33,718 bases of DNA from assembly GCA_020350285.1 (NCBI GenBank), contig CP070708.1, positions 2,837,125 to 2,870,842 on the forward strand, read 5' to 3'. A program made the translations under genes and the position numbers. Shown piece by piece: positions 13,827-32,971 of this stretch (position 1 is its first letter; every line of letters begins with the position of its first letter). The notes beneath the pieces are model-generated. The model did not search any database. It was given only the letters and a program-made list of their open reading frames with translations, and was not told the origin of the DNA. Origin of the DNA: Anaerolineaceae bacterium (lineage in GTDB: Bacteria > Chloroflexota > Anaerolineae > Anaerolineales > E44-bin32).

Positions 13827-16607
13827 TTACCTACCTTCCCCATTATCTCCTTGGGCTTCAGCTATTCGAGCCAACCCTGACGAAGCTATCGTAATGTACT
13901 GTTGTAGATCGATTTCTTCTGCCACTTCAAGTGATTTCTCGAAGTCCGCCTCGGCTTTTTCCCAATCTTGGCGTTTGAGATAAAGCTCACCACGATTGCT
14001 CAAAACGATGCTGATAAATCGACGATGACCCATCTCTCTGGCAAATTCGAGAGCTTCAGTCAAAAACGTCTCCCCTCGATCAAGATCGTCTCTCTCCCTG
14101 GCCAACACACCTAGGTTTGTGAGAAGCAACGTCGTATATTCACGATGCCCAATCTGTCGAGCAAGATCGAGGCCTTCCTGTAGATAACCTTCCGCGACAT
14201 CCTGGTCTCCACGTGTCGTTGCCATACCACCCAGATTCGCCAGTAAGTGGCTGATCCGTGCGCGATCCTCCATCTCTCGAGCCAGTGAAAGAGCCTCTAA
14301 GAAATAACCCTCCGCCTGCTTTTCATCTCCACGATCACTTGCCAGCGCACCCAAATTTGTCAGCAAGAAGCTGATGACTTTGCGATTCCCTTCTGCGCGT
14401 GCCAGTTCAAGACTCTCCTGAAAATAAATATCTGCTTCCTCCAGCGCCCCACCTCGAGCTAACACGACACCGAGGTTCATTAATAGTGAGCTTATGTGGG
14501 GATCTTCGACCTCACGAGCCAGGGCTAAGCCCTCTAAAAAGTACATCTCTGCCTGATCGATGTCCCCCCGACTGAACGCCAAAGTTCCTAAGTTTGATAG
14601 AAGAGCGCTAATTCTAGCTCGCTGATCCGACTCCCTAGCTATGTTCAAGCCTTGTAGATAATGATCTTCCGCTTCTTGATAATCCCCTCGGCTAAAAGCG
14701 ACGACACCGAGTCCTTGAAGTAAGGCACACATGCTTTTCAGATTGTTTATTTCGTGTGCCCGTTCTAACCCCTCTTGATAGTAAGCCTTTGCAATTCGAT
14801 AATCACCTCGCCGTTGAGCCATCCTTCCTAGGTTTTCCAATGCGGTTGATAATCCATGCATGTCATCGATCTTTCGTGCCGCTTTTTCCGCCCTGGTCAG
14901 ATGATCTTGAGCCTGGGCTAAGAGCCCAACCGCCTCCAAGTATGGGTAGAACGCGTTTACGCCTGTAATCAACTGTGGATGCAACTTTCGCTCAAAGGCC
15001 ACCTTAAGCGCAGCAAGAATATTCTGAGTCTCAATCTCGAGCGCAGGGAAATCCTTGTCATGCGCCGTAATATATCCGACAAAGTAATCCACAAATCTCC
15101 CAAATGCAGCCTCATCCTTCAGCTCTAGGCAGGCATATTCGGAAATCGAACGGTTCAATGAGAAGCGATCTTGCTCACGGACCTCCAACAAACCAAAATC
15201 AACTAAATGGTCCAAGACATCTGTTGAAACAGAAGCGATGACCAATGCCGCCTCTTCACTAAAGGAATTCGGTTTGGGTGGTAAGATGGAAAGCCCACCC
15301 AGGGCAGACTTTGATGGCTGATCCAATGCCTGAACGCTGATATCTATCGTGGCTTTCAACGAGAGAGGTTCACCGGGCAAAAGGCTGGGCTGCTGTTCAA
15401 GAGGTGAATGGATCTGAGATAAACGCAACCGTTCCTCAGCGTCTCTCAAACCCTCAAGCGCTGATTTTAAACGACGCATTTGCCCACTGCGAACTTCTCG
15501 CCTTAGATATCTCCCCATCAGCACGAGAGCTAAGGGCAATCCTCCAACTTCATTCACTAACAAACGGGCTTCATCCGGTTCACTGGATGTCACTTCCGGC
15601 ACAAAATGATCGAGCAACCTCAACCCATCCTTTTCGTCTAGTTCATGAAGCTCAATGGCACCCTCACCTGCCATTTCCCGGGCAACTCTGGGTAAGCGGG
15701 TGGTCACAAGATGGGCACAATGATCTCCCCCAATCTTGAATGTGAGCCCTTCATGTGCCTCCCACACATCATCAATCACGAGCAGCATCCGTTTCATAGC
15801 TAATGCCGCATGAATAGCTTGTGCCCGATCCTTCAGGCGTTCTAATTTATTGATCTCCTCCAATGGCAATCCCAAGGCGATAGCCCACTGACTGAGCAGA
15901 ACAAACAAGTCCGGGTCACGACCCAAACCCACCCAAAGAACGCCATCCTCATACCTGTCTCGAACCTCCTGATCGTGTGCGAACTCGATCGCTAAAGTCG
16001 TTTTACCGATACCTGGTAACCCGCATAGCGCAGTAAGTGGCTGATCCTCAACGTCTATGAATCGATCTTTCAGTCTCTGGTAGATCGCCTCTCGCCCGAG
16101 GATCGGGTGATCTGGTTTAGGTGGAAGCAGGTACAAAATCCTCGGCAATCTTGGTTCTTCTGGCCTCAAGAATGCAAGACGCGGATCTTCTGGGGTGCCA
16201 TGTTGATCCCACTCTTGCAGGAGATCTACAAGCGTATCTAACGCGCTCGCATGGGCATGATCATATGTGCTGCGTGCAATACCCATTTGAGCGCTTATGT
16301 AATCAGGGGATCGACCGCTTATGTATCCTTCATTGAGGAGCAGATATGGTCTCCATCGCTTCTCAAAGGGATCAGGTGGTCCCTCTGCAGGCATCAGTTC
16401 CTTGATGGCATGTCGCAGTACATCACGCAAAGCAACCCCATAACCGATCGGCGTCGATCGGTAACCCGCCGCCTTGCGTCTTGCTTCAACGATCCGTAAG
16501 CGCGCCAGAGGATGTTCGCCAAGCTGCTGGGAGTTACCCCACCTTCGTAGAGCTTTGCGAATGGACTTGCGATTGAGTGTTGCCTCAGGGTCCCCGTTTT
16601 TCATCAA
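13827..16607 (-). CDS. STAND NTPase: N-terminal helix-turn-helix-like region, NB-ARC domain and C-terminal TPR array
   Basis: This 926-residue signal-transduction ATPase has an N-terminal region (about 1-140) with a putative helix-turn-helix (SPDYISAQMGIARSTYDHAHA). An NB-ARC module follows, with Walker A GLPGIGKTT (196-204), Walker B LLVIDDVW (275-282), sensor VTTR (301-304) and GLPLA (356-360). From about residue 585 there are eight near-perfect 40-residue TPR units and a partial ninth, each with the NLGxxAxxRGD core and an A(E/D)xYfxEgL(x)LAR helix. By analogy with MalT and Apaf-type proteins, the TPRs would sense a partner and nucleotide binding would drive oligomerisation; a DNA-binding role through the N-terminus is possible. 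The ATG at 16607 has no visible ribosome binding site. The downstream partner is the beta-propeller lipoprotein. Confidence 0.9.
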   Translation of the reverse strand: MMKNGDPEATLNRKSIRKALRRWGNSQQLGEHPLARLRIVEARRKAAGYRSTPIGYGVALRDVLRHAIKELMPAEGPPDPFEKRWRPYLLLNEGYISGRSPDYISAQMGIARSTYDHAHASALDTLVDLLQEWDQHGTPEDPRLAFLRPEEPRLPRILYLLPPKPDHPILGREAIYQRLKDRFIDVEDQPLTALCGLPGIGKTTLAIEFAHDQEVRDRYEDGVLWVGLGRDPDLFVLLSQWAIALGLPLEEINKLERLKDRAQAIHAALAMKRMLLVIDDVWEAHEGLTFKIGGDHCAHLVTTRLPRVAREMAGEGAIELHELDEKDGLRLLDHFVPEVTSSEPDEARLLVNEVGGLPLALVLMGRYLRREVRSGQMRRLKSALEGLRDAEERLRLSQIHSPLEQQPSLLPGEPLSLKATIDISVQALDQPSKSALGGLSILPPKPNSFSEEAALVIASVSTDVLDHLVDFGLLEVREQDRFSLNRSISEYACLELKDEAAFGRFVDYFVGYITAHDKDFPALEIETQNILAALKVAFERKLHPQLITGVNAFYPYLEAVGLLAQAQDHLTRAEKAARKIDDMHGLSTALENLGRMAQRRGDYRIAKAYYQEGLERAHEINNLKSMCALLQGLGVVAFSRGDYQEAEDHYLQGLNIARESDQRARISALLSNLGTLAFSRGDIDQAEMYFLEGLALAREVEDPHISSLLMNLGVVLARGGALEEADIYFQESLELARAEGNRKVISFLLTNLGALASDRGDEKQAEGYFLEALSLAREMEDRARISHLLANLGGMATTRGDQDVAEGYLQEGLDLARQIGHREYTTLLLTNLGVLARERDDLDRGETFLTEALEFAREMGHRRFISIVLSNRGELYLKRQDWEKAEADFEKSLEVAEEIDLQQYITIASSGLARIAEAQGDNGEGR
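13830..14855 (-). repeat. 120-bp tandem coding repeats encoding TPR units
   Basis: The 3' third of the STAND gene is made of about eight and a half consecutive units of roughly 120 bases, seen in the protein as 40-residue TPRs. One unit (the fourth) is a codon shorter. Several neighbouring units share runs of identical codons, which points to expansion by internal duplication. Confidence 0.85.
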
Positions 16608-22394: not shown

Positions 22395-23870
22395 TTACGG
22401 GGAAGAGGTGCCGTTTAATACCCAACTCTCCATAGATTCGTGGAAGACAATGGCATCGGGAAAATAGCTTTCCATCAATTCATAGTCCGGCACCGGATAC
22501 GTGAACTGAAAGTGCATAGGGACGACATACTTGGCCTGGATCCCCTCCAGCACATGAGCTTGTTGGCTTTCCGTGATCAACATGAAGTGTGCCACAAAGG
22601 CGATGTCGATCTGTTTATCGGGAAGCCCTAATCGCTCGAGTTGAGACACAGACACTGAATCTGGGTCCATATCTCCGGTATGGAAGAACCTACGTCCGCC
22701 CACGGTGATGATGTAGCCTAGATTGAGAGTCCCCCCACCATGGTCGAGGAATAATGTTTCCACACCGATCTCATCCACAATCAACTGGAATTTCTCCCCA
22801 ACACGATGTTGAATCTGAATGGGGATGGTCCGATCCTGTAGATTGGTATATCCAGCAACTAAATCAACCACATCGGGACTTGAGACGAACACGGCACCGG
22901 GGTTGTTCTCCATATGGCTGATTACCGTATTTTGATGAAAGTGATCATAGTGTATATGCGTGGCCAAAATTAAATCGACATCATCGAAAGGAGGCTGGGC
23001 GGTCTCGAGTAAATCTGCGACCTCGCGCGGGATCGGATTTCCTTCGAAGAGCGCGTCAATCAGGATCTTTTTGTCACCGACAGTGATCATGAATCCAGCA
23101 TTACCGATGTAAGTAACCTCAACCTGCGCCTCCGTTCTTTCCATGACCCAAAACGATGCATCGCTTAAGCCACATGCCCCTTCAGGGTCACAGGCTTCGA
23201 ATTGTATCGTCTCTTGACCAGTCCATTCTGTTTCTGGAAGCTCGATCGAGGCAACACCCTCATCGATGGATACGATTAAATCAACTTCCCCTGACACATT
23301 CCAAGTCAATTCATCATTCCCAGTTTCCTCGTCATGGACAACATCATCTAAGTCGATCTCGACAAAGGTCTCGTCAGACATAATGATCTGACCGAAGATA
23401 TTGACCACAGGAGCATCGTTTTCCGCCCGTACTGTGAACACAACCTCCTTGGCATCGCACAACTCTTCGGGGTCACATGCCTCAAACCGTAGTGTCTCTG
23501 ACCCTGTCCACTCAGCTTGGGGAAGCGTGACATACACATTCCCGCTTACAAAAACCACCTCCAGTTCATCATTTCCGGATATTTCCCATTGGATCTCGTC
23601 GGCGTTGTGGTCCGCATCGGTCACAAACTCTTCCAGGTCCAGCTTAGCAAAACGCTCGCCATCGGAAATGGATTGATCTTCCAAGTTGATGATCTCCGGC
23701 GCATTACCCTGCGGTGTTTGTGTGGGTGGAATGGATGTTGCGGTTGGCAGGGGTGCAGATGTAGGCACAACCGCTGTCGGTGACGGAACTGAACTACAGG
23801 AAACGACACCGACTATTAATAAGATTGATGTCAGCAGGAACGGCATCCAGTTGCACAATTTTTTCATCAT
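22395..23870 (-). CDS. Lipoprotein with two cadherin/Ig-like repeats and a UlaG-like metallo-beta-lactamase domain
   Basis: The 491-residue protein has a signal peptide with lipobox VVSC (Cys25) and then a Pro/Thr/Ser-rich linker (26-55). Two beta-rich repeats follow at about 57-148 and 153-242, each holding W(T)G(S/Q)ET(L/I)xFEACDPE and an EACDPExxC cysteine pair. A metallo-beta-lactamase fold fills the rest, with HIHYDH at 305-310, HTGD (Asp400) and His453 in VPMHF. The repeats match bacterial cadherin-like or tandem-95 modules by the ENDAPVV linker. The enzyme part looks like UlaG-type metal-dependent hydrolases; the substrate is unknown. ATG 23870 is chosen, as AAGGAAAAAGG lies upstream; TTG 23891 is the alternative. 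It is on the cell surface and divergent from the LuxR regulator. Confidence 0.88.
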   Translation of the reverse strand: MMKKLCNWMPFLLTSILLIVGVVSCSSVPSPTAVVPTSAPLPTATSIPPTQTPQGNAPEIINLEDQSISDGERFAKLDLEEFVTDADHNADEIQWEISGNDELEVVFVSGNVYVTLPQAEWTGSETLRFEACDPEELCDAKEVVFTVRAENDAPVVNIFGQIIMSDETFVEIDLDDVVHDEETGNDELTWNVSGEVDLIVSIDEGVASIELPETEWTGQETIQFEACDPEGACGLSDASFWVMERTEAQVEVTYIGNAGFMITVGDKKILIDALFEGNPIPREVADLLETAQPPFDDVDLILATHIHYDHFHQNTVISHMENNPGAVFVSSPDVVDLVAGYTNLQDRTIPIQIQHRVGEKFQLIVDEIGVETLFLDHGGGTLNLGYIITVGGRRFFHTGDMDPDSVSVSQLERLGLPDKQIDIAFVAHFMLITESQQAHVLEGIQAKYVVPMHFQFTYPVPDYELMESYFPDAIVFHESMESWVLNGTSSP

Positions 23871-24241
23871 CCTTTTTCCTTGTGGGTTCAAGTTACATAG
23901 GTAAGATCTATTCTCTTATCCAAAGATCGAATAGCATTAGATTGGGAATCAGGTGTCTTAAGGGCTTCAGTTTCAGACTCTCAGAAAATATTGGATCAGC
24001 AACCTATGCTGATCGCCTTCTTCACCCAAGTTAAGCTGATGTAATTTTAATACCAACCAAACCAAGGGAGAGTTCAGATGATACCCTCCAGAACGAGCAC
24101 GGTGTCCGCTGACTTAGAGAAGATGTAAACAAAACATGGAGACATACCGATCCGATAACCTGCCTTCAGTGGATGTCTGTAAACCTCAAAACACGAAGCG
24201 CTCCATGCTGTATAATCGCCTCGACGATCGTTGCTAAGAAG
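23871..24241. other. Divergent promoter region between lipoprotein gene and LuxR-type regulator
   Basis: No gene is supported here. The plus-strand frame is open from 24173, giving an alternative longer regulator. No consensus promoter or structured element was recognised; the ribosome binding site of the lipoprotein gene lies at its left edge. Confidence 0.45.
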
Positions 24242-26932
24242 ATGATCCAGAGACAACTTCTCACTACAAAGATCCAAATCCCTCCGCTTCCACCACAAAC
24301 GATCAAGCGCACGCGGTTGTTCGAAGCGCTGGATCGTGGTCTTCAACCCAACATACGTTTGACGCTTCTTTCGGCACCGGCAGGCTACGGGAAAACCACA
24401 TTACTAAGTGATTGGATCCAAGATCGTGGACTCTCCACCGCATGGCTTTCATTGGACGAGGGTGACAACGATTCGATCCGCTTCATGAGTTACCTTCTCG
24501 CCGCTCTCGAAAGTGGGATCCCGACAGCGGATTTCCCCGCTCCTGTTAGCGAACCGCTGTCAGAAGATGAAATCCAACAGCAGATCTTAATCCCCTTGAT
24601 CAACCAGCTAGGTCAATCACCAAGACAGACCACCCTCATCCTTGATGATTATCATTGGATCCAAAGTCAAACGACTCACGACCGCATAGGCTACCTGTTG
24701 GACCATCTGCCACCTCAGGTCCTCATCCTTGTTGCTACCCGCGCCGATCCCCCCCTTCCCCTCACTCGCTTACGGGGTCGTGGGCAGATGAATGAGTTAC
24801 GGATGGAGGACCTGCGTTTTCAGATCGAAGAAGCCGAGGTTTTTCTGGAGACCTTCACGGACTTGAAACTCACATCAGATGATATTCACACATTGACCCA
24901 TCGGACCGAAGGATGGATTTCTGGGTTGCAGATGGCTGCTGCCTCCCTTCAAGTTCATGAGGACAAAGCCACGTTCATACGGGATTTTTCTGGCAGTCAC
25001 CATTACATCATGGACTACCTGCTCGATGAGGTTCTTCGCCGGCAAACTCCCCAAATCCAGGCGTATTTACTCTACACTTCCATCCTGTTTCGCTTATGTG
25101 CACCCCTCTGCGATGCCGTGATGGAGGTAACAGGTGAGAGCTTCCCCCCGAGCCAAAGCATCTTGAAGGACCTGGAAAGAGCGAATCTTTTCATCGTACC
25201 ACTTGACGCTAAGCGTGAATGGTATCGCTACCATCGGCTTTTTGGTGATCTACTCCAGGCTCGGCTGCAGCGGAAAGACCCCCGCCGTATCCCCGCACTC
25301 CACCGTCAGGCCAGTGAGTGGTTCGAGGACCATAGCCTATTGGATGAAGCTGTACAACACGCACTCTTGTCCTACGACCATGCTTACGTGGCCGATCTTA
25401 TCGAACGCGCATCCGAAGAGACATTCATGCGTAGCGAAACAATGACCTTCCTACGCTGGGTACAGCGTTTACCGGAAGAGGAAATCCAGAAACGACCCAA
25501 GCTGGGAATATACAGGGCGTGGGCGCTTCTTTGGCATGGTGCGCCGTTGAGCTCGGTTGAAGCTCAACTTCAGAAGGATCCAGAAGAAAGTGGTCCTCCA
25601 GGCAGCTCGCTTACATTACAGGCCTTCATTGCACTCTCTCAAGGTCAGATGGAGCATGGTTTGGAGCTTATCAAACAAGCCTTGAAGATGTTGCCTGAGG
25701 ATGAAATCTACCTCCGTGACTTTGCGACTTTTTGCGCCGCAGCCACGCAAATTTCCTTAGGGGATCTCGAGGGTGGCATGCAACTGTTGGAACAAACCTC
25801 GCAAAAAAGCCAGCGATCCGGAAACAGGGCAGCTACCGTGATGATCCTCTGTGAATTAGCTGAGATGCGCTTAAGGCAACTACAAGTGAAGGAAGCCGAG
25901 AAGCTATTCCAACAAGCATTAAGTATCGCCACCGATCAAGATGGCAATCTTCTACCGATTGCAGGCGGACCGCTGATCGGCCTCGGCGACGTAGCCCTCG
26001 AACACTATAACCTTGATTCCGCCGAAAGTCTGCTCCAGGAGGGTATCCAGCACGCCGAGCGGTGGAGCCTGATCAGCACGCTGACCGGGCATCTCTCCAT
26101 GGCGATGCTTCATTACGCTCGAGGCGATACACTGGCTTTGGAGGATTCACTTGAAACCCTTTATGAACTCGCTCAACGTTTCGATGCATCTGAATTCGAT
26201 GACATGATCGTGGAGTTGTTCGAAGCTGGATTGAATGTACGCCAAGGAAACTTTGAAGCCGTCCAGGCTTGGATAGCCCGCCGAGATCTGGAAGGCGCAC
26301 CTGAACGCATACCCTCCCTCTATAAAGAAAATCAGGTGCTGGGAAGGATCTATAAATATGAGCTACCGGTCCTTGCGCGTCTGGATATAGCCAAGAAACG
26401 CTACGAGCAAGCATTTAAAGTACTCGATGAACTTTCATCCCAAGCTGAGCGTGTAAATCGTCCTTTCTTACAACTTGAAGCTGAAATCTTGAAAGCACGA
26501 GCATTCCATGCCGTAGGTGATTCAGTCTCCTCCTTAACTGCCTTACGTAGAGCGCTAGAGATCGCTGCACCAGTAGGCGCGGCACGTGTTTTTATAACCG
26601 AAGGGGAAGAATTCATTCAGCTCTTACAAACCGCACGATCCGAGCTAGATTCACCCGATCTGATCGAGTTCATGGACCATCTACTAGCTAAAGCCGGATT
26701 GCCCGTGTCGATGAGACCATCCCCCACCCAAGGCATATTTGAGCCCCTGAGCCCCCGGGAGCTCGAGGTCCTCCATCTCCTTCCTACTGGATTGACCGCC
26801 AAGGAACTCGCAGATGAGTTGATCATCTCAGTGAATACCGTACGCAGCCACCTGAAAAGCATCTACGCCAAATTGGGGGTTCACAGCAGACACGAAGCCG
26901 TCGCTCGAGCCGCTGAACTAGATCTTCTCTGA
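24242..26932 (+). CDS. MalT-type LuxR-family transcriptional regulator (ATP-binding, TPR-like repeats, C-terminal HTH)
   Basis: This is an 896-residue large ATP-binding LuxR regulator. The N-terminus has the MalT-like start (TTKIQIPPLPPQTIKRTRLFEALDRGL) and Walker A APAGYGKTT (45-53), then Walker B-like TLILDDYHWI. The middle is helical with TPR/SEL-like repeats that normally bind the inducer. The last 61 residues are a LuxR helix-turn-helix (LSPRELEVLHLLPTGLTAKELADELIISVNTVRSHLKSIYAKLGVHSR). It should activate transcription when an inducer binds. ATG 24242 (MIQRQLLTTK) is preferred over ATG 24173, which adds 23 non-homologous residues. It is followed by the dikinase cassette on the same strand, so it is a candidate activator of those genes, by position only. 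Confidence 0.92.
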   Translation: MIQRQLLTTKIQIPPLPPQTIKRTRLFEALDRGLQPNIRLTLLSAPAGYGKTTLLSDWIQDRGLSTAWLSLDEGDNDSIRFMSYLLAALESGIPTADFPAPVSEPLSEDEIQQQILIPLINQLGQSPRQTTLILDDYHWIQSQTTHDRIGYLLDHLPPQVLILVATRADPPLPLTRLRGRGQMNELRMEDLRFQIEEAEVFLETFTDLKLTSDDIHTLTHRTEGWISGLQMAAASLQVHEDKATFIRDFSGSHHYIMDYLLDEVLRRQTPQIQAYLLYTSILFRLCAPLCDAVMEVTGESFPPSQSILKDLERANLFIVPLDAKREWYRYHRLFGDLLQARLQRKDPRRIPALHRQASEWFEDHSLLDEAVQHALLSYDHAYVADLIERASEETFMRSETMTFLRWVQRLPEEEIQKRPKLGIYRAWALLWHGAPLSSVEAQLQKDPEESGPPGSSLTLQAFIALSQGQMEHGLELIKQALKMLPEDEIYLRDFATFCAAATQISLGDLEGGMQLLEQTSQKSQRSGNRAATVMILCELAEMRLRQLQVKEAEKLFQQALSIATDQDGNLLPIAGGPLIGLGDVALEHYNLDSAESLLQEGIQHAERWSLISTLTGHLSMAMLHYARGDTLALEDSLETLYELAQRFDASEFDDMIVELFEAGLNVRQGNFEAVQAWIARRDLEGAPERIPSLYKENQVLGRIYKYELPVLARLDIAKKRYEQAFKVLDELSSQAERVNRPFLQLEAEILKARAFHAVGDSVSSLTALRRALEIAAPVGAARVFITEGEEFIQLLQTARSELDSPDLIEFMDHLLAKAGLPVSMRPSPTQGIFEPLSPRELEVLHLLPTGLTAKELADELIISVNTVRSHLKSIYAKLGVHSRHEAVARAAELDLL

Positions 26933-26986
26933 TTCCCTCACCCATCCGTAAATTGGGGATTTGATCCCAGATCACCCATTCATGTG

Positions 26987-27016
26987 ATGACATCTTAGCT
27001 ATGGTGCTACTATAGT
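26987..27016 (+). promoter_or_regulatory. Candidate promoter of the small-protein/dikinase operon
   Basis: ATGACA (26987-26992) and TATAGT (27011-27016) match TTGACA and TATAAT at five of six positions each, with an 18-base spacer. Transcription would begin at about 27023-27024, only a few bases before the GTG at 27026, so the first gene could be leaderless or nearly so. Found by eye. Confidence 0.45.
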
Positions 27017-27025
27017 TGGACCATA

Positions 27026-27325
27026 GTGCATGAAAAGGCTAAATCTTCTTTCTGCCAGGGTGAAGGTTCTCCATATGAGATCCAGATTCATGGCGAGCTC
27101 GACGAGCGTTGGTCCGATTGGTTCGACGGAATCGAGGTCACTATTGAGCATACCTGCGATCACCTTCCCCTCACCACACTGAAGTGCCCTGCGATGGACC
27201 AAACAAAATTACGGGGCATATTGAATAAGATCTGGGATCTGAACCTCAACCTCATATCGGTTCGTGAGGTTCACGATCCAACACTCAAAGAAGTATCGTC
27301 GGATGGGTTTACCGAGTTAGAATGA
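27026..27325 (+). CDS. Small conserved-type protein of unknown function
   Basis: This 99-residue soluble protein has the pattern YEIQIHGELDERWSDWFDG, a middle TTLKCP strand, and DQTKLRGILNKIWDLNLNLISV. This pattern (W..WF.G ... DQ..L.G.L.KI.DL.L.L.SV) recurs in small proteins that I remember from Chloroflexota and related genomes, often next to LuxR-type regulators, but I know no function. The frame begins at GTG 27026 and has no clear ribosome binding site; the promoter just upstream would allow leaderless translation. The next gene follows after 30 bases, so they are probably one transcript. It may be a small partner of the regulator or of the dikinase. Confidence 0.75.
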   Translation: MHEKAKSSFCQGEGSPYEIQIHGELDERWSDWFDGIEVTIEHTCDHLPLTTLKCPAMDQTKLRGILNKIWDLNLNLISVREVHDPTLKEVSSDGFTELE

Positions 27326-27355
27326 TAGAGCCTATCCGTAGGATGGAGGGTAACG

Positions 27356-29959
27356 ATGTCACCTCAACTTATACTCCCATTGAATGATGCCCAAGCCACG
27401 TTGGAATCCGTAGGTGGCAAAGGAGCTTCATTGGCACGTTTGATAAACGCTGGATTTCCCGTGCCGGATGGTTTCCACATCACGACGGAAGCCTACCGTA
27501 GGTTTGTCCAAGAAAATGAACTGCAACAAAACATCGATGCTGCCTTACAGCTTGTTGATGTGGAGAAACCATCCACGCTCGAGGAAGCTGCGAAGGTGAT
27601 TCGTGAAGCCTTTCTGGGTGCCACAATCCCTGGGGATATTGCCAGCGTCATCGTCGGCGCCTATGGTGATCTCGCTGGGACGGACCCTGCTGTAGCCGTA
27701 CGCTCTTCGGCCACGGCTGAGGACCTACCGGAGGCTTCGTTCGCTGGTCAGCAGGAGACCTACCTCAACGTCAGTGGTGCGGATCATGTGCTCGAAGCGA
27801 CGAAAAAGTGTTGGAGCAGTTTGTGGACGGCTCGGGCTATCGGTTATCGCCATCGACAAGGTATCAGCAGCGCGGGGGTTGCGCTGGCGGTTGTGATCCA
27901 ACGACTAGTGGACGCCGAAGTGGCAGGGATCCTCTTCACCGTCAACCCAGTGGATGGCAACCGGGAGCATGCACTGATCAGCGCTGCTTGGGGTTTAGGC
28001 GACGCTGTGGTCGGGGGTCGGGTCACGCCGGATGAATATGTCATGGAGAAGCGTAGCGGGCGTATGGTTAGACGCGAAGTGGCGGATAAAGAGCTCATGA
28101 CGGTTGTGGTGGACGAGGAGACCGAAGATCAACCTGTGCCCGAGAATTTGCGTAATGTACCCGTTCTCCAAGAAGCTGATCTCGTTGAACTTAACCGGTT
28201 TGGAGTCGAGATTGAGGGACTGTATGGCATGCCCATGGATATCGAATGGGCGCTGGCGGACGGCAAGCTAGCCATCGTACAGGCACGACCCATTACAGCG
28301 CTGCCGGAACCTACGTTTGAACCGCCAACCGATTGGCCCATGCCTGATCCCAAAGGACCTTACATGCGCGGCAGCATCGCCGACTTCATGCCGGATCCGC
28401 TGACTCCCTTGTTCCTAACCATGGCCATACCAGCTATCAATGCCGCGATGGGGCGGACAATGAAGGAAATGATCGGCGGCGATGCTTCGATTCTGGAGAG
28501 CTTTATAACCACGATTAACGACTACGCTTATCAATACGTGAAATTGGGTTGCCGGGATTGGTTGTGGGTGGTGTTCAGAATGCTACCGGCCATCCCTCGG
28601 CTCTTACGCGATAGCGAGCGGCACTGGCGCGAAGTCGCACGTCCCCAGTATATGGAGGTTGTGACCCGCTGGCGTGCAAGGTCACCGCAGGAACTGAGCG
28701 CTGTTGAACTCATAACTGGGGTGGATGAGTTGACCAACGCCATGGCAGATCACCTTACTGCACTTCAGGTGGACACCCTCGGCGCCGCAGCTGGGAGCGA
28801 GGGATTGTTCACTACCGTCTACGATAAATTGGTCAAGCGCGAGGGCGACCCCATTGCTGCCACCCTACTTCTAGGTGCTGACAGCACGCCTATCCAGGGC
28901 GAAAAGTCGCTCTACGATCTGGCGCTTTGGTCCCGCCAGCACAACGCTTTGGCAGATTACTTACTAAACACACCGACCAGCGAACTCGCAGCCCGGTTAC
29001 TGGACGATGAAGGACATCCGGAGATCGATGCATGGGAGGAGTGGCGACGCCGCTTCCAGGAACATTTACAACAATACGGCCACAGTATCTACGACCTGGA
29101 TTTTGCCAAGCCGCTACCTGTGGAAGAACCACTGCCACTGTTGGAACTTCTGAAATTGTTCATCCAGGGCGAAGGCGTCAATCCCCATGAACGCCAGCAG
29201 ATACTGGCAGCCAGGCGCGAAGCAGAAGTGGAGGCTGCCTTGAGTAGGGTTAAAGGGTTGAAGCTGCGACTCTTCCGCTGGACCTTACGCTTGGCTCAGT
29301 CCTTTTCTGTGATGCGTGAAGACAGCATCTTCGATATCGGGCTTGGCTACCCTGTGCTGCGCCAGATACTGCACCGGTTGGGCGTCCGCCTCGTAAATGC
29401 CGGGGCTATCGCAGATGCAGACGACATCTATTGGCTGGAAAAAAGTGAAGTCGAAAACGCCGCGGTAGCACTTGATCGAGACGATTCACTGGAAAACCTC
29501 ATGGGGTGGATCGAAGTGCGTAAGGCAGAATGGCGAGCCAAACAACTTGTTCAACCACCTATGCAACTGCCACCTAAGGAACGGATCATGGGAATCAAAA
29601 TGGACGCATTCATGCCCGTCAGCGCCGATGAGCAGACCGAGGAGACCCTCAAGGGCATAGCAGCCAGCTCGGGCCGGGTCACTGCCACCGCTCGCGTCCT
29701 GCACAGCTCGGAGGAATTTGGACAGATGAAAGCCGGTGACATCCTGGTGGCTGAGATTACCACCCCAGCCTGGACACCACTTTTCGCCATGGCTGCCGGG
29801 ATTGTCACCGATATTGGTGGACCACTCAGCCACGGGTCCATCGTCGCTCGTGAGTACGGCATACCCGCTGTGTTAGGGACCGGAATTGCCACGCGCGTCA
29901 TCCAAAGTGGACAGCAGATCACTGTAGATGGCGATGCTGGCTTAGTTACCCTTAACTAG
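27356..29959 (+). CDS. Rifampicin phosphotransferase-like dikinase (PEP-utilising family)
   Basis: This 867-residue protein has the three-part plan of rifampicin phosphotransferase (RPH). The ATP-binding PPDK_N part (about 1-315) has GGKGASL (Lys22), AVRSSATAEDLPEASFAGQ (Arg116), DIEW (Glu297) and VQARPI (Gln309, Arg311). A middle, mainly helical domain covers about 320-770. The swivelling phospho-histidine domain at the end holds TDIGGPLSHGSIVAREYGIPAV, with His826. It would take two phosphates from ATP through His826 and pass one to a substrate. Length and key residues match Listeria RPH nearly one for one, from memory of its sequence. It ends right after the His domain, so it lacks the PEP-binding barrel of PEP synthase. 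The true substrate may be another antibiotic or a metabolite. A GGAGG ribosome binding site lies upstream of ATG 27356. Confidence 0.87.
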   Translation: MSPQLILPLNDAQATLESVGGKGASLARLINAGFPVPDGFHITTEAYRRFVQENELQQNIDAALQLVDVEKPSTLEEAAKVIREAFLGATIPGDIASVIVGAYGDLAGTDPAVAVRSSATAEDLPEASFAGQQETYLNVSGADHVLEATKKCWSSLWTARAIGYRHRQGISSAGVALAVVIQRLVDAEVAGILFTVNPVDGNREHALISAAWGLGDAVVGGRVTPDEYVMEKRSGRMVRREVADKELMTVVVDEETEDQPVPENLRNVPVLQEADLVELNRFGVEIEGLYGMPMDIEWALADGKLAIVQARPITALPEPTFEPPTDWPMPDPKGPYMRGSIADFMPDPLTPLFLTMAIPAINAAMGRTMKEMIGGDASILESFITTINDYAYQYVKLGCRDWLWVVFRMLPAIPRLLRDSERHWREVARPQYMEVVTRWRARSPQELSAVELITGVDELTNAMADHLTALQVDTLGAAAGSEGLFTTVYDKLVKREGDPIAATLLLGADSTPIQGEKSLYDLALWSRQHNALADYLLNTPTSELAARLLDDEGHPEIDAWEEWRRRFQEHLQQYGHSIYDLDFAKPLPVEEPLPLLELLKLFIQGEGVNPHERQQILAARREAEVEAALSRVKGLKLRLFRWTLRLAQSFSVMREDSIFDIGLGYPVLRQILHRLGVRLVNAGAIADADDIYWLEKSEVENAAVALDRDDSLENLMGWIEVRKAEWRAKQLVQPPMQLPPKERIMGIKMDAFMPVSADEQTEETLKGIAASSGRVTATARVLHSSEEFGQMKAGDILVAEITTPAWTPLFAMAAGIVTDIGGPLSHGSIVAREYGIPAVLGTGIATRVIQSGQQITVDGDAGLVTLN

Positions 29960-29976
29960 GAATATGGAGATTAATT

Positions 29977-31578
29977 ATGGATGAATGGAACGTCACTTCA
30001 ACGGGAGATTACCTGTGGACGAACATGATCGTCGGCGAGATATTCCCTACGACAATGACACCGAGCACCTGGTCAGTTTGGCAGGAACTTCTGAGCATCA
30101 TGTCCTTGGGAGACATTCCTTCGTTTGGGAACATCGCCGGCCGTCCTTACCTTAACTACAGCTTGGTCTATTCGTTCCAGATGAAACTCTTACGGAAACA
30201 TGAGCGGGTAATGAATATGATCAAAGACTCAATCGGTGTCCCACCTGTCGGTGTGGACATCCCCTCTTTCCCCGTCTTCTGGAAGACCATCTTGTTCCAG
30301 CTCATTCCCCGTGAGTTCAGGAACGAAATGAAGAAAAACAAACTAAAGGATACCGCACCTGAGTACCTGGTGAGAATCCCAGGTCGCTGCCTGGAGCTAC
30401 AGCATCGGATAGGTGAAACGGGAAGGGAAGAGTTGATCTCCCTTTGGACAGATGACATCAAGCCCCTTTGGAAAGAGACCCATCTCCTCCAGGACAAGAT
30501 GAACGAGGATCTTGCGGGGTTGACACGCAAGCTTAAGGCAGAGTTGACCAAACATATTGGAGACGATGAGGCCGATACGCTCCTGACCACAATCAGCGGA
30601 ACCGGTGAGTTAGCCAGCCTAGGACCATTGGCCGGCATCGTTAAGCTGAGAAGCGGAGAATTGAGTCGCGAAGAATATCTGCAGCGGTATGGTCACCGCG
30701 GGACACTCGAGAACGAATTGGCCGAACCGCGCCCTTACGAGGATCCGACCTGGCTCGACAGGCAGTTGGAAGAATTCAAGAAGTCACCGATAGATGTGAC
30801 CGCGATGCTGGAAAAGCGAGATGTCGAATTCGACACGATACGGGGTGAGATCAAGCGCCTCCTACCCACGAAGTATGCTGAAAGCGTTGAAGAAAAAATG
30901 GGCGTCATCGTGGAGGCGAACGCCACCCGCGAATGGACGCGTTCAGAACTTACGCGCATCTTTGATATCATCCGCAGGTTTTTCCTGCGTGCCGGTGAAC
31001 TTAGCGGGTTAGGTGATGATGTGTTCTTCCTCACGGTTGACGAACTCATAGCTGTCCTGTCTGGGGATACATCGCTGACCGCAAAGATCCCCACCCGACG
31101 GCAGGCGTACGAGAAGTACAGAGCGTTGCCACCTTTGCCGGGCTGGATTCGGGGTCATTTCGATCCAATCGGATGGGCTGCGGATCCGAACCGTCGTAAG
31201 GACATTTTCGACGCCAATATATCCGCACATCCCACAGCACCGAGCATCGGCGATGTCATCGAAGGAAAGCCAGGCTCAGCTGGGATTGTGGAGGGGATCG
31301 TCCAAAGAATTGACAGCCCTGATGAGGGTGATCGACTCCAAACTGGTGAGATTCTGGTCGCTCGGATGACAAATGTGGGCTGGACGCCGATATTCCCGCG
31401 TGCCGGGGCAGTCGTTACCGACATTGGCAGCTCACTCTCACATGCAGCCATCGTGGCTCGGGAATTAGGTATACCCGCCGTAGTTGGCTGTGGTGACGCT
31501 ACGATACGCCTAAAGACCGGTGATCGGGTGCAGGTGGATGGTGGGAGGGGGATCGTAGAGATATTGGAAAAAGCTTGA
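29977..31578 (+). CDS. PEP-utilising/RPH-like protein lacking the ATP-grasp domain
   Basis: The 533-residue protein has no PPDK_N ATP-binding part. The N-terminus (WTNMIVGEIFPTTMTPSTWSV) begins at the point where the middle domain starts in full-length family members, then runs helical to about residue 430. The C-terminal mobile domain is intact: GEILVARMTNVGWTPIFPRAGAVVTDIGSSLSHAAIVARELGIPAVVG, with the phospho-histidine candidate His489. Alone it cannot phosphorylate itself from ATP; the ATP domain must come from another protein, possibly the dikinase encoded 17 bases upstream. Its own substrate pocket may differ. GGAG seven bases before ATG 29977 gives the start. The stop codon overlaps the exporter start by one base (TGATG). 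Confidence 0.85.
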   Translation: MDEWNVTSTGDYLWTNMIVGEIFPTTMTPSTWSVWQELLSIMSLGDIPSFGNIAGRPYLNYSLVYSFQMKLLRKHERVMNMIKDSIGVPPVGVDIPSFPVFWKTILFQLIPREFRNEMKKNKLKDTAPEYLVRIPGRCLELQHRIGETGREELISLWTDDIKPLWKETHLLQDKMNEDLAGLTRKLKAELTKHIGDDEADTLLTTISGTGELASLGPLAGIVKLRSGELSREEYLQRYGHRGTLENELAEPRPYEDPTWLDRQLEEFKKSPIDVTAMLEKRDVEFDTIRGEIKRLLPTKYAESVEEKMGVIVEANATREWTRSELTRIFDIIRRFFLRAGELSGLGDDVFFLTVDELIAVLSGDTSLTAKIPTRRQAYEKYRALPPLPGWIRGHFDPIGWAADPNRRKDIFDANISAHPTAPSIGDVIEGKPGSAGIVEGIVQRIDSPDEGDRLQTGEILVARMTNVGWTPIFPRAGAVVTDIGSSLSHAAIVARELGIPAVVGCGDATIRLKTGDRVQVDGGRGIVEILEKA

Positions 31579-32768
31579 TGAATGCAAGCAACCCTAAGAA
31601 TTTGTACATCCTAGCCTTTACCCTCGTTGTTGTCACGCTGGGTTTCGGTGTCGTCATGCCCATCATTCCTTTTTACATGGAGAATTTGGGCGCCGGCGGG
31701 ACCGAATTAGGTCTGTTGGTGGCTTCATACGCCGTGATGAGGTTGATCTTCGGACCCATCTGGGGAAGCCTTTCAGATCGCGTCGGCCGCAAACCAATCC
31801 TGATGATCGGCGTTCTAGGGTATGGCATTACGATGGTGGGGTTCGGTTTGGCCACACAGCTGTGGATGATGTTCGCAGCACGTATTCTTGCCGGCGTGCT
31901 CTCTTCAGCCACCTCCCCCACTACCATGGCCTACATCGGGGACAGCACCTCCGAAGAAGATCGCGGTGGTGGCATGGGGATCCTAGGGGCTGCTGCCGGC
32001 TTAGGGACTATCTTTGGACCGGCATTAGGCGGGTTGCTCGCCGATAAATCATTATCCACCCCCTTCTTCGTCGCTGGTGGGATGTCGGTTCTAGCGCTAA
32101 TTCTCATTACCGTTCTTTTACCCGAATCCTTAAAGGAAGCCGATCGCTCGTCAAAGGACACCGATCAGCCAATCCTGGACCTGCGTGCCTGGTGGAAGGC
32201 TCTCTTCAGCGCCATCGGCCCCCTGCTGGTCCTGGTCTTTCTGGTGACAGGTGGGCTGATGATCTTCTACGGTATCCTAGGGCTTTATGCACTCGAACGC
32301 TTCGAGTATGGGACCAGCGAGGTCGGTGTGATCTTTACCGTACTCGGCTTGGTGATGGCCTTAGGTCAGGGGTTATTGGTTGGACCCTTTACCAAACGCT
32401 ACGGTGATTTGGCGGTGATTAAGGTCAGTTTCCTGCTCTCTGCCGCCAGCCTGCTGACTGTGATGGTGGCCGATCAATACACGACCTTATTATTAACGCT
32501 CGGTTTCTTCAGCCTTTCCAATGCGCTGCTCATCCCAGCGATCACCTCGCTGACCTCAAAACGCACCACCTTGAGTCAAGGCGTGACCATGGGGCTAAGT
32601 AATTCCTTCATCAGTCTGGGTCGGATCTTCGGCCCGCTGCTGGGTGGTGTGGTCTTCGATATCAACTGGGGGTTGCCTTTTGTAAGCGGTTCTGTTGTGA
32701 TGTTGATCGGATTTCTCGTAAGCTTACGTTGGGTTAAGGAAACGCATGTAACTGGACAAGTTGTCTGA
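31578..32768 (+). CDS. MFS transporter, drug:H+ antiporter-1 (TetA/MdtG-like) type
   Basis: This 396-residue twelve-helix exporter has motif A GSLSDRVGRKPIL between helices 2 and 3, and motif C GAAAGLGTIFGPALGGLL in helix 5; the latter is the mark of drug antiporters. The closest pattern is the TetA/MdtG-type DHA1 group. ATG 31578 overlaps the previous stop (TGATG), so translation is coupled to the ATP-grasp-less protein; a TTG at 31575 is a minor alternative. A pump last in an operon of two phosphotransferase-like enzymes suggests that it exports the compound they act on or its product. This is inferred from position. Confidence 0.92.
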   Translation: MNASNPKNLYILAFTLVVVTLGFGVVMPIIPFYMENLGAGGTELGLLVASYAVMRLIFGPIWGSLSDRVGRKPILMIGVLGYGITMVGFGLATQLWMMFAARILAGVLSSATSPTTMAYIGDSTSEEDRGGGMGILGAAAGLGTIFGPALGGLLADKSLSTPFFVAGGMSVLALILITVLLPESLKEADRSSKDTDQPILDLRAWWKALFSAIGPLLVLVFLVTGGLMIFYGILGLYALERFEYGTSEVGVIFTVLGLVMALGQGLLVGPFTKRYGDLAVIKVSFLLSAASLLTVMVADQYTTLLLTLGFFSLSNALLIPAITSLTSKRTTLSQGVTMGLSNSFISLGRIFGPLLGGVVFDINWGLPFVSGSVVMLIGFLVSLRWVKETHVTGQVV

Positions 32769-32831: not shown

Positions 32832-32971
32832 TTCCAGTAGAGGCGGCTCCCCCGCTTGTCCTGAGCATGCCGAAGGACCGCCGTACGACCATGCATGAGA
32901 GGCCGGTCTACTGATTATTGGTTATGGCTGTGTATTGAAGCTCAAGCTACCAATTCCAGCAGAGGCGGCTC
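32832..32971 (+). repeat. Two copies of an 18-base direct repeat TTCCAG(T/C)AGAGGCGGCTC
   Basis: Copies at 32832-32849 and 32954-32971 differ at one base. Each is followed about 11 to 13 bases later by CCTGAG. The repeat unit may therefore be about 35 bases long, with the 3' part diverged. Unknown origin. Confidence 0.65.
32858..32878. repeat. Interspersed element GTCCTGAGC...GAAGGAC
   Basis: The imperfect dyad GTCCTGAGCATGCCGAAGGAC is like the short interspersed sequence CTTGTCCTGAGC-N-GTCGAAGGAC that I remember from many bacterial genomes, including Chloroflexota. It has no known function. Only this one complete copy is in the window; a partial CCCTGAG sits at 32981. Confidence 0.5.

Follow-up and report, generated by a model that had tools for sequence, protein, structure and literature searches.

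Do four closely spaced genes in an Anaerolineaceae genome, encoding a small protein, a dikinase resembling rifampin phosphotransferase (RPH), a second dikinase homolog, and a drug-type exporter, form a functional unit, as the initial annotation of this DNA proposed, and what might such a unit do? We analyzed the whole stretch of 33,718 nucleotides (here called the window), which comes from a single-contig, 3.4-Mb genome that is 80% complete. Our reading, to which we give a probability of about 50%, is that the locus is a locally regulated chemical-response operon for phosphorylation and export, in which one ATP-grasp domain probably charges two swivel domains.

Layout of the locus

Open reading frame calls confirmed that four plus-strand genes are tightly packed between 27026 and 32768, and that a MalT-type regulator lies just upstream of them. 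The features of the locus are as follows.

24173 to 26932, plus strand: MalT-type LuxR/STAND regulator, 919 amino acids (Pfam TPR_MalT, 6e-52; GerE, 7e-17)
26972 to 26992, plus strand: operator TCACCCATTCATGTGATGACA, MalT-box-like, overlapping the −35 box (conservation in relatives)
26987 to 27016, plus strand: promoter, −35 ATGACA, 18 bp, −10 TATAGT (same site kept in relatives)
27026 to 27325, plus strand: small regulator-companion protein, 99 amino acids, GTG start (open reading frame, alignment, AlphaFold)
27356 to 29959, plus strand: small-molecule dikinase (DIK), 867 amino acids (Pfam PPDK_N, 6e-105; PEP-utilizers, 1e-25)
28273 to 29750, plus strand: exchanged substrate-binding segment of DIK, borders approximate (DNA identity, tree conflict)
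29977 to 31578, plus strand: ATP-grasp-less dikinase homolog (AGL), 533 amino acids (Pfam PF00391 only)
31575 to 32768, plus strand: DHA1-type MFS drug exporter, 397 amino acids (Pfam MFS_1, 2e-62)

Gaps of 30 and 17 bases separate the small gene from the DIK gene and the DIK gene from the AGL gene, respectively. The exporter could start at TTG 31575 or ATG 31578, both of which are open, and the ATG overlaps the TGA of the AGL gene by 1 base. In Pfam, DIK matched PF01326 and PF00391, AGL matched PF00391 alone, and the exporter matched MFS_1.

The gene order recurs across Chloroflexota

In a search of named genomes, the locus had a single close relative, in a metagenome-assembled Anaerolineae bacterium (L066). 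When we annotated neighborhoods in other genomes, nearly all of them drafts, with the window's own proteins, we found the order regulator-small-DIK-AGL-MFS of the window's genome (G000) again in G002 and G018. G002 and G018 are two relatives from the same family with the full four-gene order, including AGL; in G002, the regulator, AGL, and the exporter are 84%, 89%, and 89% identical to those of the window. A phylum-wide search recovered exactly the window's order, small-DIK-AGL-MFS, in a genome from another class (G362), on a contig that stops before any regulator. The same genes are rearranged in G003, which has two ATP-grasp-less genes, the second of them frame-broken. Pairs of a dikinase and an ATP-grasp-less gene were found in three further genomes; regulator-small-DIK-AGL runs up to a contig end in G232 (class-wide search), and G571 has a DIK-AGL pair (phylum-wide search).

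A core of regulator, small gene, DIK, and MFS gene is present in G020, G041, G009, G133, and G307, and also in G431, there with a frame-broken regulator (phylum-wide search). In G042, two extra open reading frames lie between regulator-small-DIK and the MFS gene. Class-wide searches added small-DIK-MFS on a short contig (G341), DIK-MFS (G108), and regulator-small-DIK (G062). The constant core is regulator-small-dikinase-MFS, and the AGL gene is the variable part.

Many of these loci were picked via the small protein or AGL, so that order counts come from a biased sample. Among DIK homologs gathered blind to context (at least 48% identity, flank visible), the small gene lay directly upstream in about 7 of 18 and an MFS gene downstream in about 7 of 18. 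DIK homologs at 43% identity or below had no small gene adjacent to them. That about half of the context-blind homologs do without the small gene and exporter speaks against our reading. The recurrence nevertheless spans families and classes, which puts the gene order far beyond chance, and since the small family occurs in just 71 of 350 sampled genomes of the phylum, its association with DIK is not a chance one either. The refuting condition named in the initial annotation, an order confined to this genome, does not hold. Its idea of a four-gene functional unit holds in that the cassette is real, conserved, and locally regulated, a new combination of known families; with the regulator, which belongs to it, the unit has five genes or more. 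AGL is variable, and the small gene is the regulator's companion.

The small protein accompanies MalT-type regulators

With its TPR_MalT region and LuxR-type helix-turn-helix, the regulator is a MalT-like STAND protein. Against the MalT equivalog model NF003420 it scored 435.4 bits, short of the cutoff of 537. In nearly all related loci it lies directly upstream of the small gene. Conversely, the small family, found in those 71 genomes as a companion of MalT-type regulators, is mostly encoded right behind such a regulator, on the same strand, whatever cargo comes next. The cargo of other regulator-small units (38 proteins) included nine DUF4386 membrane proteins, six ABC exporters, three zinc alcohol dehydrogenases, and one MFS protein. 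We considered whether the small protein might be an enzyme subunit and rejected this, as most homologs sit behind MalT-type regulators with other cargo; the same variety of cargoes led us to assign the small protein to the regulator.

The small protein had no sequence match in Pfam, NCBIfam, or the PDB. Its AlphaFold model (pLDDT, 73) predicts, with modest confidence, a beta-alpha-beta-beta-alpha-beta fold, for which the best structural matches were ACT/ferredoxin-like, all of them nonsignificant. The protein may bind a ligand or modulate the regulator. In dikinase cassettes it bears the signature LRGxLxKxWDLN, whereas others have LHGxLxKxRDLG: a dikinase comes next in 14 of 15 LRG-type small genes and in 1 of about 31 other small genes (Fisher test, ~1e-9, a value that ignores kinship). 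The cassette thereby brings to light an undescribed family of small proteins that are companions of MalT-type regulators and for which curated models are lacking.

The window unit shares its STAND/TPR/LuxR architecture with MalT but adds the companion protein, has a dikinase and exporter as cargo rather than maltose genes, and places the start codon very close to the promoter. The gene that follows the small gene often encodes a DUF4386 membrane protein. At some loci the small domain itself continues in frame into a hydrophobic, membrane-like C-terminal segment of ~100 to 200 amino acids (L078:8877-9539, L079:9648-10406 and 14553-15281, and L094:8622-9479).

A conserved operator overlaps the promoter

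The promoter-like site annotated before the first gene is borne out by its conservation in relatives, although the promoter scan alone, with 9 sites against 8.0 expected in shuffled sequences, was not above chance. In the regulator-small gaps of G000, G002, G003, G018, G020, and G133, a palindromic element (GTGATGACA in most) ends in a −35 box, which is followed after 17 to 18 bases by TATAGT or TATACT. A held-out test recovered the operator pattern derived from these loci in 13 of 43 other regions upstream of small genes, where 0.3 to 0.4 were expected, usually with TCACC...GGGTG-type arms, and the MalT-box-like operator is also present at many loci with other cargo. A palindrome that overlaps the −35 box likens the window operator to the MalT box and to the Actinoplanes motif TCATCC-N5-GGATGA, which overlaps the −35 region (PMC7567727). 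A scan of the genome revealed no second credible operator copy; the only other match has 3 mismatches and lies inside a coding gene, and we therefore rejected a wider regulon.

The start codon in the window lies 9 bases past the −10 element, and in five of those six genomes it lies 7 to 9 bases beyond it. The exception is G133, whose small gene starts ~20 bases downstream and is preceded by an AGGAGG-like site. The window has lost the ancestral ATG of the small gene, which now reads ATA, and the GTG one codon on serves as the start. With a leader so short or absent, the sequence suggests that the small-gene transcript is probably leaderless.

DIK has exchanged its substrate-binding domain

DIK comprises an ATP-grasp domain (residues ~1 to 320), a substrate-binding domain (~345 to 785), and a swivel domain with His826. 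It matched PDB entries for RPH at 4e-94. RPH-Lm aligned over the ATP-grasp domain, the end of the central domain, and the swivel domain; the first half of the central domain could not be aligned. Like RPH (RPH-Lm, PDB 5FBS/5HV1), DIK has the order ATP-grasp, acceptor, and C-terminal phospho-His, the same donor residues, and the Arg, Glu, and His residues: K22, R116, T135, H826, and the RE pair at 654 to 655 correspond to RPH Lys22, Arg117, Thr136, His825, and Arg666-Glu667. At the phosphate-binding positions Gln337 and Lys670 of RPH, DIK has other residues by a pairwise alignment that is weak in that region. PF01326 with PF00391, the Arg-Glu pair, and the swivel His place DIK in the small-molecule dikinase superfamily. 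Its scores fell below the curated RPH cutoffs (NF041857, 439.4 against 999 bits; NF000283, 359.5 against 1700 bits), and on these we rejected rifampin phosphotransferase proper. Of the annotated antibiotic-phosphorylating dikinase, then, the RPH likeness and catalytic residues stand, but the RPH assignment does not. The window cassette further differs from RPH in its second acceptor protein, MalT-type control, and exporter.

Protein identity between DIK and its G002 counterpart was 82 to 100% over residues 1 to 320, 22 to 56% over 361 to 800, and 85 to 95% over 801 to 867, while the central part was 50 to 88% identical to that of G003. DNA identity with G002 fell to 44 to 64% only at ~28273 to 29750, against mostly 75 to 94% in the coding sequence on either side. 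The ATP-grasp tree joined G000 with G002 (98/92), whereas the central-domain tree joined G000 with G003 (100/99); forcing the alternative groupings was rejected in both cases (AU test, P = 6e-28 and 2e-178, for groups chosen after the identities were known). DIK is thus a chimera in its central domain, the substrate-binding domain having been swapped between orthologous operons, and since the breaks fall at domain borders, exchange of a specificity module fits. Stogios et al. described this region as the fastest diverging within the family (PMC4844700); our observation, an exchange between operons that are otherwise orthologous, is more specific.

The exporter and neighboring genes

The last gene was correctly annotated as a drug-type exporter. 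The protein resembles NorA structures (3e-48) and Tet(A/B/C)-type proteins in length and motifs as well as in overall similarity, has antiporter motif C GLGTIFGPALGG at 142, and passes the DHA1 superfamily model TIGR00880 (131.8 against 131 bits). It nonetheless falls under every specific Tet cutoff; the Tet(A/B/C)-type match (7e-57) reached 193 of 475 bits. ABC-2 exporters adjoin full-length AGL relatives in L126 and L127, so that the pairing of dikinase and exporter recurs with different exporters.

Within the exporter gene, 31973 to 32173 (residues ~140 to 205) is 61 to 66% identical to G002 DNA, compared with ~80% around it; this is perhaps a small exchange or a fast-evolving substrate region. 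ICMT-type membrane methyltransferases recur beside these dikinases (L068:10482-11099, L130:11455-12093, and L138:3470-4210). PADLOC matched none of the enzymes, the exporter, or the small protein, and weakly matched the DNA-binding region of the regulator; an antiphage system was rejected, as no enzyme was matched.

AGL may receive phosphate from DIK

As annotated, the second enzyme has the middle and phospho-histidine parts of a dikinase; it has no ATP-grasp domain and no room for one. AGL consists of an acceptor domain (R318, E319, and R322) and a swivel domain with His489, with an RPH match over residues 229 to 531. These four residues, invariant in 15 sequences, correspond to Arg666, Glu667, Lys670, and His825 of RPH-Lm (PMC4844700). 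The AGL model (pLDDT, 84) is predicted to fold like the last two domains of RPH, matching RPH-Lm with a Foldseek E value of 1.5e-17. Between G000 and G002, the dN/dS ratio for AGL is 0.13 to 0.14, indicating purifying selection, which together with the invariant residues led us to reject an assembly remnant or pseudogene.

Full-length AGL relatives of 789 to 790 amino acids keep the ATP-grasp domain. One such 790-amino-acid AGL-type enzyme, with its own ATP-grasp domain, fills the slot in a regulator-small-enzyme-MFS locus (G018:C92), and the AGL-family tree implies at least four changes of ATP-grasp state. A full dikinase is present in the locus of 8 of 12 ATP-grasp-less members and 0 of 7 full-length ones (Fisher P = 0.013, ignoring kinship; pairs were too few for an independent-pair test). 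ATP-grasp-less relatives in G039, G108, G081, and G307 have no full dikinase adjacent, but in G039 a stand-alone ATP-grasp protein of the DIK type lies ~4 kb away. G009 carries a natural 1420-amino-acid fusion (L081:8977-13239) of one ATP-grasp domain with two acceptor-plus-swivel modules, the second of which resembles DIK, not AGL.

There is a precedent in HpeHI, where an ATP-grasp protein charges a separate acceptor/swivel protein (PMC12167813). Compared with HpeHI, CreHI, and PpsAB, AGL is HpeH-like, an acceptor-plus-swivel protein apart from an ATP-grasp domain, but it sits beside a complete dikinase that has acceptor and swivel domains of its own; the window operon contains no stand-alone ATP-grasp subunit of the HpeHI type. 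Taken together, the colocation of AGL with dikinases, the G009 fusion, the G039 ATP-grasp protein, and the HpeHI precedent favor charging of AGL by DIK in trans.

On this basis, a compound would be sensed by the MalT-type STAND regulator, probably together with the small protein. The regulator would then activate the single promoter through the MalT-box-like operator, which overlaps the −35 box. The ATP-grasp domain of DIK would load phosphate onto its own swivel histidine and also onto that of AGL, so that one donor site would serve two substrate-binding sites, and the MFS protein would expel the phosphorylated or parent compound. Of this scheme, gene content and its recurrence, operator conservation, the catalytic residues, purifying selection on AGL, and the domain exchange were observed. 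We infer that the regulator does the sensing, that charging occurs in trans, that the MFS protein exports this same compound, and that the cassette serves detoxification and not biosynthesis. More tentatively, as a wider principle, one ATP-grasp domain may charge swivels in cis and in trans, with substrate-binding modules swapped like cassettes and the system triggered by a MalT-type sensor that has a previously undescribed ACT-like companion.

HpeH alone moves phosphate from 4-phosphoacetophenone to acetovanillone (PMC12167813), and AGL could by analogy be a transphosphorylase that works without any ATP-grasp domain, passing phosphate from DIK's phosphorylated product to a second acceptor. 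Its intact acceptor-side residues and the relatives that lack a neighboring dikinase would suit such a role. We think it unlikely, given that 8 of 12 ATP-grasp-less members have a full dikinase in the locus and that the G009 fusion, with one donor and two acceptors, points to a shared ATP-grasp domain.

Rather doubtful is a biosynthetic or modifying cassette, in which the dikinases would act on intermediates on the way to a secreted metabolite, activating or joining them (compare PigC and RedH), and the MFS protein would export the product. The PigC and RedH models are among DIK's better matches, and ICMT-type methyltransferases (L068, L130, and L138) or, beside another AGL relative, an LCM methyltransferase occur nearby. 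Yet the PigC and RedH cutoffs were far from reached, and the cassette has no scaffold-making enzyme: besides its one or two dikinases, it holds a regulator, the small protein, and an exporter.

The missing donor domain and the frameshift that splits the comparable G003 gene might also mark AGL as a catalytically unimportant remnant or a decoy or regulatory subunit of DIK, but with its low dN/dS and invariant catalytic residues and His, this is very improbable. A catabolic two-component phenol-type kinase that borrows its ATP-grasp domain from a neighboring gene, split in the same way as HpeHI, CreHI, and PpsAB (PMC12167813), is extremely unlikely, as the operon has an exporter, a full-length partner enzyme, and no aromatic catabolic genes.

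The cassette thus looks like an inducible phosphorylate-and-export unit that recurs across Chloroflexota. Across the phylum, it joins one dikinase clade with a regulator, its operator, and an exporter and so offers an inducible system in which the substrate can be sought. We did not meet the suggested one-donor, two-acceptor layout in the literature searched, and nothing was found in the open-license literature on a rifamycin-associated element or the genomic context of this dikinase family; the natural G009 fusion makes the layout easier to test.

Other sequences in the window

On the minus strand, 22395 to 23891 encodes a lipoprotein-like protein that combines a bacterial Ig domain with a metallo-beta-lactamase fold. 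Downstream of the exporter, the repeat TTCCAGNAGAGGCGGCTC occurs at 32832 to 32849 and 32954 to 32971; the genome holds nine copies with at most 1 mismatch, compared with none for a backward control.
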